Source: Gimesia algae
Lineage (GTDB): Bacteria > Planctomycetota > Planctomycetia > Planctomycetales > Planctomycetaceae
DNA length: 64,000 nt
Direction: 5' to 3'
Assembly (NCBI RefSeq): GCF_007746795.1
Contig: NZ_CP036343.1
Location: 3,027,369-3,091,368 of the forward strand
This document shows, in pieces, positions 22,430-24,296 of this stretch. Position numbers and translations under genes: made by a program. A model generated the notes under the pieces. The model made no database searches. It was not told the origin of the DNA and worked only from the letters and a program-made list of their open reading frames with translations. Numbering within the stretch: position 1 is the stretch's first letter; each line of letters starts with the position of its first letter.

Positions 22430-23539
22430 ATGACCGAACGGATCAATCTAAAACAGACTGATGACATCCGCGATGTGATCCATCTTGCTGTCCAGTACCT
22501 GGCAAAAGGAGAACTGGTCGCCTTTCCCACTGCCACTGCCTACGTGATCGCAGGTCAGTCACTCAGTCCCGCCGCTATGGCGAAACTGCGTTCCCTGTCA
22601 GGCGGTGATCAACCGCTGGTCCTGTGCGTAAAGGGTTTTGACGAGGCACAGGATTATCTGCCGGAAATGCCACCTCTGGCACGAAAACTGGCCAAACGCT
22701 GCTGGCCAGGCCCCGTGGTTCTGGAACTGAAACGCCCGCAACCAGGCAGCCTGTTTTCACAACTGCCGCCCGAAGTACAATCAGAAATCTGCCCTGGCAG
22801 TCACTTGAGGCTCCGGGCTCCTGCGCATGAAATCATTTTTCAGGCCATGCGTCTCTCCCCTTCGCCACTCGTGTTATTAAACGAAGATTCAAAATATCAG
22901 ACTGCGGATTCGCTCATCGACGATTTCGGAGAAGAAGTTGCTTTGGTCATCGACGATGGCCCGTCCCGCTTTGGTGATCAGTCAACGATTCTCGGCGTCG
23001 ATGAACATCAATGGAAAATAATACAACCCGGTGTCGTAACAGAAACCACACTCAAACGACTCTCCAGCGAAATATACATGTTTATTTGCACAGGAAACAC
23101 CTGTCGCAGCCCGATGGCAGAAGGCCTGTTTCGCAAATTACTGGCTGAAAAGCTGAACTGCCAGGAAGACGAACTGTCTGATCGGGGCTTTATTGTAGGG
23201 TCAGCTGGCCTCGCTGCAGCCATGGGAGCTCCCCCCAGCCCGGAAGGAGTCGCCATCCTGGCTGAACAGGGGATCGACATCCAGGCGCATGAAAGCCAAC
23301 CACTGACAGAACGGCTCCTGGATCAGTCTGATCACATTTTTACCATGACACAGGGGCATCGTGCAGCCATTCTGGCGGAGCGCCCCGATCTGGAAGAATC
23401 CGTCAAACTCCTGTCTGCTGAAGGAAAAGATGTGTCCGATCCCATTGGGGGAGGCTTTCAATGCTATGTCGAATGTAAAAATGAAATCGAAAAGCACCTT
23501 ACCCAGATTATTGCTCAGATCAACATTCCGCAGAATTAA
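22430..23539 (+). CDS. YrdC/Sua5-like domain fused to low-molecular-weight protein phosphatase
   Basis: 369 residues from the ATG at 22430 (AGAAGG upstream). Residues about 15-205 have the YrdC/Sua5 fold pattern (GELVAFPTATAYVIAG, WPGPVVLEL, LRLRAP, VIDDGPSRFGDQSTILGV, QPGVV). Residues about 215-365 are a low-molecular-weight phosphotyrosine/arginine phosphatase with the P-loop CTGNTCRS (Cys220, Arg226) and the general acid in SDPIGG (Asp337). In Bacillus the separate ywlC and ywlE genes are near neighbours. The YrdC half has lost the usual KxRP and S-A-N substrate motifs, so threonylcarbamoyl-AMP synthesis is doubtful, while the phosphatase half looks intact. Confidence 0.85.
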   Translation: MTERINLKQTDDIRDVIHLAVQYLAKGELVAFPTATAYVIAGQSLSPAAMAKLRSLSGGDQPLVLCVKGFDEAQDYLPEMPPLARKLAKRCWPGPVVLELKRPQPGSLFSQLPPEVQSEICPGSHLRLRAPAHEIIFQAMRLSPSPLVLLNEDSKYQTADSLIDDFGEEVALVIDDGPSRFGDQSTILGVDEHQWKIIQPGVVTETTLKRLSSEIYMFICTGNTCRSPMAEGLFRKLLAEKLNCQEDELSDRGFIVGSAGLAAAMGAPPSPEGVAILAEQGIDIQAHESQPLTERLLDQSDHIFTMTQGHRAAILAERPDLEESVKLLSAEGKDVSDPIGGGFQCYVECKNEIEKHLTQIIAQINIPQN

Positions 23540-23840: not shown

Positions 23841-24296
23841 ATGAAAATTGCAGTTGCCAGTGATCACCGAGGATTTACCACAAAGGTAAAAATTCTCACT
23901 CTTCTTAACCAGTTAGGACATGTGGCCTTTGATTATGGTCCCGATGATGGAGAAAGTGTCGACTACCCCGATTACGCTGTGAAAGTCGCAAAAGCCATTG
24001 GTGAGAAAACGATCGACCGGGGCATTCTGATCTGTGGTACTGGCATGGGGATGTGTATCGTCGCTAATAAATTTCCGGGAGTCCGCGCAACTCCCTGCCA
24101 CGATGATATCACCGCCCAGATGAGTCGCCTGCATAATGACTCCAATGTGCTCTGTCTCTCTGCGGACCTGCTGGGAGATCGACTCGTCAACCGCATGATT
24201 GAAATCTGGCTGAAAGAAGAATTCGAAGGGGGCAGACACGCACGACGCCTGGAAAAACTGCACAAGGTCGAAGAAGAGAATATGCCTCCACATTGA
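23841..24296 (+). CDS. rpiB: Ribose-5-phosphate isomerase B
   Basis: 151 residues, standard RpiB/LacAB length. ASDHRGF (Asp8, His9) and GILICGTGMGMCIVANKFPG with Cys65 match the phosphate-binding and catalytic-base positions of E. coli RpiB; SRLHNDSNVLCLSADLLG is the second conserved block. It interconverts ribose-5-phosphate and ribulose-5-phosphate in the pentose phosphate route. The gene stands alone, 286 bp before gcvH. Confidence 0.95.
   Translation: MKIAVASDHRGFTTKVKILTLLNQLGHVAFDYGPDDGESVDYPDYAVKVAKAIGEKTIDRGILICGTGMGMCIVANKFPGVRATPCHDDITAQMSRLHNDSNVLCLSADLLGDRLVNRMIEIWLKEEFEGGRHARRLEKLHKVEEENMPPH

Follow-up and report, generated by a model that had tools for sequence, protein, structure and literature searches.

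A planctomycete fusion of a TsaC-type domain with a YwlE-like phosphatase, and the probable loss of TsaC catalysis in Gimesia

TsaC is the TC-AMP synthase that acts as the first enzyme of tRNA t6A synthesis, and this enzyme is essential. A KxR...SxN tetrad is described as the signature of the TsaC/Sua5 family (PMC10321239, PMC9654439, PMC3223725). For the low-molecular-weight (LMW) phosphatase YwlE, the Thr at PX5 of the P-loop is described as steering the enzyme to phosphoarginine over phosphotyrosine, and as mattering in PtpB too (PMC8001253). In B. subtilis, McsB and YwlE are described as controlling the degradation and stability of TsaD, the t6A enzyme that follows TsaC (PMC7546277). A search of titles and the first parts of abstracts, with most subscription papers outside its coverage, returned no publication describing a fusion of TsaC with a phosphatase, and neither PMC10321239 nor PMC9654439 has a word starting with "planctomyc" or "phosphatase" in its main text. 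The pair of YrdC and LMW phosphatase domains could well show up in domain databases.

The window is the whole stretch of Gimesia algae DNA that was analyzed, 64,000 nucleotides in length. Between an ATG at 22430 and a stop at 23539 lies one uninterrupted open reading frame that joins these two domains in one protein of 369 amino acids (Table 1). Only PF01300 (Sua5_yciO_yrdC; 76.2 bits, cut-off 25.1) and PF01451 (LMWPc; 87.6 bits, cut-off 23.2) were found by Pfam, with almost no linker between the domain bounds and no Kae1-like domain detected. A previous, sequence-only reading had described a degenerate Sua5/YrdC domain fused to an intact LMW phosphatase; this was borne out by the open reading frame, Pfam, and the motifs, all of those it quoted (PTATAYVIAG, PLVLLNEDS, STILGV, CTGNTCRS, and the Asp) being present. 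The frame was open across its full length in 16 of 16 Gimesia coding sequences compared, and therefore does not result from an assembly or reading error. A pseudogene or sequencing error was likewise ruled out by these open frames in combination with the low dN/dS given below.

Table 1. Positions of the fusion gene, its domains and motifs, and its downstream neighbor in the window.
Feature	Position	Strand	Basis
Fusion gene, degenerate YrdC/TsaC half plus YwlE-like LMW phosphatase, 369 aa	22430..23539	+	ORF, Pfam
YrdC/TsaC half (aa 23-201), probable pseudoenzyme	22496..23032	+	PF01300, tetrad scoring, dN/dS
Former TET loop (aa 33-43), PTATAYVIAGQ, 10/11 positions invariant in 16 Gimesia	22526..22558	+	
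Former KxR loop without its Lys and Arg, shortened (aa 54-62), 1/9 positions invariant in 16 Gimesia	22589..22615	+	
Former SxN loop without its Ser and Asn (aa 146-160), PLVLLNEDS...	22865..22909	+	
Retained ST segment (aa 174-187), 13/14 positions invariant in 16 Gimesia	22949..22990	+	
LMW phosphatase half (aa 217-359); B. subtilis YwlE is the closest solved phosphatase	23078..23506	+	PF01451
P-loop CTGNTCRS (aa 220-227), PX5 = Thr224	23087..23110	+	
Catalytic Asp337 of DPIGG	23438..23440	+	
rpiB, downstream neighbor of the fusion gene	23841..24296	+	

Within the YrdC half, the canonical PTETVYG of the TET loop has become PTATAYV, both the KxR and the SxN loop are shortened, and PLVLLNEDS stands at the place of the canonical S-A-N, followed by a STILGV that is kept. 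The KxR/SxN catalytic tetrad is absent from the window protein and from the other 9 Gimesia that were scored. Against TIGR00057, the TsaC equivalog model, the window protein scored 84.1 bits, under the cut-off of 123.2. Canonical residues still present include T34, T36, Y38, W-P-G-P, R129-x-P, and S185-T186, and the closest solved structures by sequence are Sua5 threonylcarbamoyl-AMP synthases (about 1e-20). A structure model of the fusion (AlphaFold, six Gimesia rows) had a mean pLDDT of 36.5, too low to use. As judged from these sequence features, the fused TsaC half of Gimesia is probably catalytically dead, i.e. a pseudoenzyme.

The sequence-only reading had held that a genuine TsaC must be encoded elsewhere. 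The window genome (7.93 Mb) does encode a canonical Sua5-type protein with the full tetrad (G000:C1:7718781, PF01300 plus Sua5_C), which reads FATETVYG, KQR, SAN, and STVI at the respective motifs and scores 201 bits to TIGR00057 (cut-off 123.2); the contrary finding, a genome with no other tsaC, was therefore not made. A standalone Sua5 was present in all 37 genomes of the window's family. The window genome further encodes a TsaD, besides which PF00814 gave another, shorter match. HypF, a separate protein of 786 amino acids, was considered as a source of TsaC activity and set aside, as it is not needed given Sua5.

In order to place the Gimesia fusion in the phylum, matches to the window protein were collected across sampled genomes. 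Matches occurred in 278 of 294 Planctomycetota and in 148 of 148 genomes of the window's class, where a match may cover one half only or be a standalone Sua5. The fusion itself, whose conservation across planctomycetes had been proposed as a check, was found phylum-wide in the sample. Among the best 30 matches, 13 lay outside the window's family; all 13 kept the TET motif and 12 of them S-x-N. An intact relative with the fusion (L018) passes the TIGR00057 cut-off (149.9 versus 123.2 bits). A contig scan using patterns of the window protein yielded five near-full-length relatives (three titled Gimesia, one Planctomycetaceae, and one Planctomycetota) and one partial phosphatase match titled Natronospira.

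The tetrad was scored in 232 genomes, comprising 135 of the 148 class genomes (all except G294, G307, G321, G333, G343, G351, G366, G378, G382, G394, G398, G414, and G416) and 97 from outside the class. Outside the class, 34 and then 80 of 273 sampled genomes were hand-picked, the main criteria being good completeness and a listed match to the fusion. The open reading frames of G242, G278, G284, and G004 were dropped as they were without a phosphatase domain, and those of G396 and G400, cut by contig ends, were excluded from the final counts, leaving 230. A standalone Sua5 was defined as a strong PF01300 match (E <= 1e-50) away from the fusion, read off by hand; its absence within the class refers to the matches listed, among which a weak, divergent TsaC could be missed.

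Using this scoring, Lys and S-x-N were kept in 104 of 109 genomes with no standalone Sua5 among the matches listed, versus 7 of 121 genomes with one. The 109 genomes with none among the matches listed comprised 88 with KxR and SxN, 16 with Lys and SxN, 1 with SxN only, and 4 with no SxN. The corresponding values beside a standalone Sua5 were 3, 4, 2, and 102, the remaining 10 of the 121 having a YrdC half that was missing (8) or strongly reduced (G365 and G385). Fisher's test for Sua5 presence versus tetrad gave about 1e-49, a value to be read with related genomes not being independent. Eleven families held both kinds of genome, 8 of them showing the same direction, 0 the opposite, and 3 ties (sign test, 0.008); this count includes the edge rows G396 and G400, both in family f93, which is a tie either way. 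On supported branches of a tree of the phosphatase half, 8 independent pairs gave about 4.1 in the same direction, 0.2 opposite, and 3.7 with no difference (median p 0.125), or 2.9, 0.0, and 5.1 with edge rows included (p 0.25), short of significance because supported branches were too few. Where a standalone Sua5 is present, loss of the catalytic residues from the fused TsaC half is the rule. Degeneracy is no inherent trait of the fusion, which in many planctomycetes is the only TsaC among the matches listed. The genome counts and the 8 of 11 families suggest that the fusion is often the sole TC-AMP synthase of the cell, and that it would be a pseudoenzyme where Sua5 is present. The expectation of a degenerate domain compensated by a separate enzyme is consequently supported in part: it fits Gimesia, and it did not foresee the many genomes in which the fused half is intact with no other TsaC among the matches listed.

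Exceptions were found in both directions. Three genomes (G319, G399, and G031) combine Sua5 with an intact fused tetrad, and five have neither Lys plus SxN nor a Sua5 among the matches listed, with completeness values of 99% (G274), 91% (G188), 90% (G149), 83% (G404), and 81% (G420). L022 is the fusion of G274, a draft genome. Furthermore, G346, G358, and G401 of the window's family, all with Sua5, lack the YrdC half and retain the phosphatase only; the half is therefore dispensable, which points to a role that is open to loss. A separate variation concerns L030, L031, L033, L288, and L316 (G099, G012, G222, G062, and G263, respectively), in which Ser replaces the Arg of KxR with Lys and S-x-N kept. 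These genomes had no other PF01300 match among the matches listed, so that this Arg may tolerate replacement.

The phosphatase half is complete in its catalytic residues, with both the C-x5-R-S/T P-loop and the catalytic Asp present in the window protein. Across the scored open reading frames, the Cys, Arg, and Asp were found in 232 of 232 and the PX5 Thr in 213 of 232. The window genome contains one protein with an ATP:guanido kinase domain, which lies above one NCBIfam protein-arginine-kinase cut-off (456.9 versus 385) and below those of four others. The sequence-only reading had left a choice between a protein-arginine and a tyrosine phosphatase, and it is the arginine side that is supported by the YwlE match, the PX5 Thr, and the kinase in the genome. 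On these features, the half is most likely a protein-arginine phosphatase that would reverse arginine phosphorylation by McsB. The same kinase domain occurs in 280 of 294 sampled Planctomycetota and is thus nearly universal, so that co-occurrence of fusion and kinase offered no contrast in this sample. In family f60, all five scored members (L292, L295, L298, L306, and L314) have the P-loop C-x-G-N-T-D-R-S, with the second Cys replaced by Asp. The other two LMW-phosphatase-family genes of the window genome (L005 and L006; C1:5579908-5585398) are separated by 2 kb. Arsenate reductase is the closest family for the one examined (arsC_pI258, 145.9 bits, under the cut-off of 174.3), which adjoins a protein that by eye resembles a membrane transporter.

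Downstream, rpiB begins 301 bases 3' of the fusion gene on the same strand and is followed by gcvH and gcvP. Of the 226 loci whose downstream flank spans 500 bases or more, 159 have RpiB, 158 of these on the same strand. It recurs as a neighbor in many planctomycete families, though not in all of them: it was present in 37/37 loci of the window's family, 0/31 of f93, and 0/7 of f32, although flank lengths differ and some absences may be missed genes. In B. subtilis, ywlC (TsaC), ywlE, and rpiB (ywlF) are close together as well. The phosphatase half is also matched by a solved chain, PDB 4egs, whose label is ribose 5-phosphate isomerase RpiB, a hint that the phosphatase may be fused to RpiB elsewhere.

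To examine what has been retained in the fused YrdC half, residue survival and substitution rates were compared. In 104 broken halves from genomes with Sua5, the K, R, S, and N of the tetrad survived in 0.03, 0.12, 0.17, and 0.03 of rows, respectively; because a half counted as broken when Lys, Ser, or Asn was missing, some of this loss, but not that of all four residues, arises by construction. The fold residues G27, W92, P93, G94, P95, P131, and P146 survived in 88-99% of the same halves, with W92, P93, G94, and P95 kept in 0.88-0.95. Over 16 Gimesia coding sequences, mean identity was 80% for the YrdC half and 86% for the phosphatase half, and median dN/dS (NG86) was 0.087 (64 pairs with dS under 2) and 0.059 (61 pairs), respectively. 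In the other genera treated as Sua5-bearing, the dN/dS of the YrdC half ranged from 0.03 to 0.49 where computable. The ratio of YrdC-half to phosphatase-half dN was 0.98-2.90 over 14 such genera, Gimesia included, with the YrdC half higher in 13 of 14; one of these genera, g260, includes G404, where no Sua5 was found. Six genera without Sua5 gave ratios of 0.56-1.38. Constraint on the YrdC half is therefore relaxed but not gone beside Sua5, and it is strong in Gimesia, where the dead half is under purifying selection and is not junk. Within the Gimesia half, the old KxR loop varies freely, and active-site-derived segments (residues 33-43, 127-136, 146-152, and 174-187), picked after the alignment had been seen and also fold motifs, were invariant at 38 of 42 positions versus 64 of 152 elsewhere.

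It is quite possible, if short of probable, that the YrdC half is a structural remnant that is hard to lose, since it helps the phosphatase to fold or remain soluble, and that binds and regulates nothing: fold residues are the best kept in broken halves, the YrdC half has the higher dN in nearly all Sua5-bearing genera, and, among the scored genomes, 8 lack it and 2 others have it in reduced form. The invariance of the active-site-derived segments, with the post hoc choice and fold motifs just mentioned, argues against a remnant of this kind, as does a dN/dS near 0.09, which in our judgement is low for a mere spacer.

We consider it likely that the gene belongs to a planctomycete fusion of TsaC with a YwlE-type phosphatase and that, in Gimesia, it encodes an arginine phosphatase with a retained, non-catalytic TsaC module. 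An ancestral planctomycete fusion would have joined a TC-AMP synthase to a protein-arginine phosphatase of YwlE type. In Gimesia and its family, the standalone Sua5 most likely makes TC-AMP, and the fused half, apparently because this other gene does the job, would have lost its active site and become a pseudoenzyme, the fold residues being kept and the ATP/substrate tetrad and its loops removed. The complete phosphatase half would continue to act on arginine phosphorylation, and the dead half is most likely a non-catalytic module that would steer it, through putative docking to the t6A machinery or ligand binding in a remodeled pocket. A connection of the fusion with t6A is plausible because McsB and YwlE are described as setting TsaD stability in B. 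subtilis (PMC7546277). More tentatively, and with a specific role that we regard as somewhat unlikely, the fusion may tie t6A synthesis to protein-arginine phosphorylation: the TsaC half may place the arginine phosphatase at the t6A machinery, e.g. at TsaD, and the Gimesia half, relieved of catalysis by Sua5, may have become a pseudoenzyme dedicated to docking or ligand sensing that determines which proteins escape degradation tagged by arginine phosphate.

The proposal of the sequence-only reading, that the YrdC fold became a putative RNA- or nucleotide-sensing module for the phosphatase, appears unlikely in this specific form; retention under selection, conserved remnants of the pocket, and the double-stranded RNA binding described for the YrdC family (PMC3223725) are in keeping with it, but the catalytic tetrad is lost and no sign was found that favors RNA or a nucleotide over an amino acid or a partner protein. 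It is very improbable that the half is still an enzyme, with its chemistry altered to another adenylate or carbamoyl reaction or a YciO-like activity, since all four residues described as the TsaC signature are gone (PMC10321239, PMC3223725) and both loops are shortened, even though the canonical residues listed above remain and the half is under purifying selection.

In many members of the phylum, an essential tRNA-modification enzyme is joined to a protein-arginine phosphatase, which suggests that decoding fidelity and protein quality control are directly connected; a connection of this kind is described for B. subtilis in the regulation of TsaD by McsB and YwlE (PMC7546277). Sister lineages with and without a standalone Sua5 offer a natural experiment on the conversion of an essential enzyme domain into a pseudoenzyme. 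For annotation, a match to the TsaC/Sua5 domain on such a fusion need not indicate a TC-AMP synthase.

Among described systems, HypF and TobZ resemble the fusion in carrying a YrdC domain within a larger protein, but their YrdC domain is described as keeping KxR...SxN and feeding a Kae1 domain (PMC9654439), whereas the window protein is without the tetrad and has a phosphatase as its partner. YciO, compared by description, is likewise a COG0009 member without KxR...SxN that does not replace TsaC (PMC3223725). Descent of the Gimesia half from YciO is nevertheless unlikely because this half is part of the fusion lineage, in which the other members are canonical. With TsaC/Sua5 (COG0009), the window half has the PF01300 profile in common, and the intact fusion L018 lies above the TIGR00057 cut-off; the window protein differs in falling under that cut-off, in being without KxR/SxN, and in that a phosphatase takes the place of the C-terminal domain of Sua5. 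YwlE is the best-matching solved phosphatase, and the likeness extends to CTGNTCRS with the PX5 Thr, the DP-loop Asp, and the rpiB next to the fusion gene. Solved YwlE is a single-domain protein of ~150 residues, whereas the window phosphatase sits behind a TsaC half.
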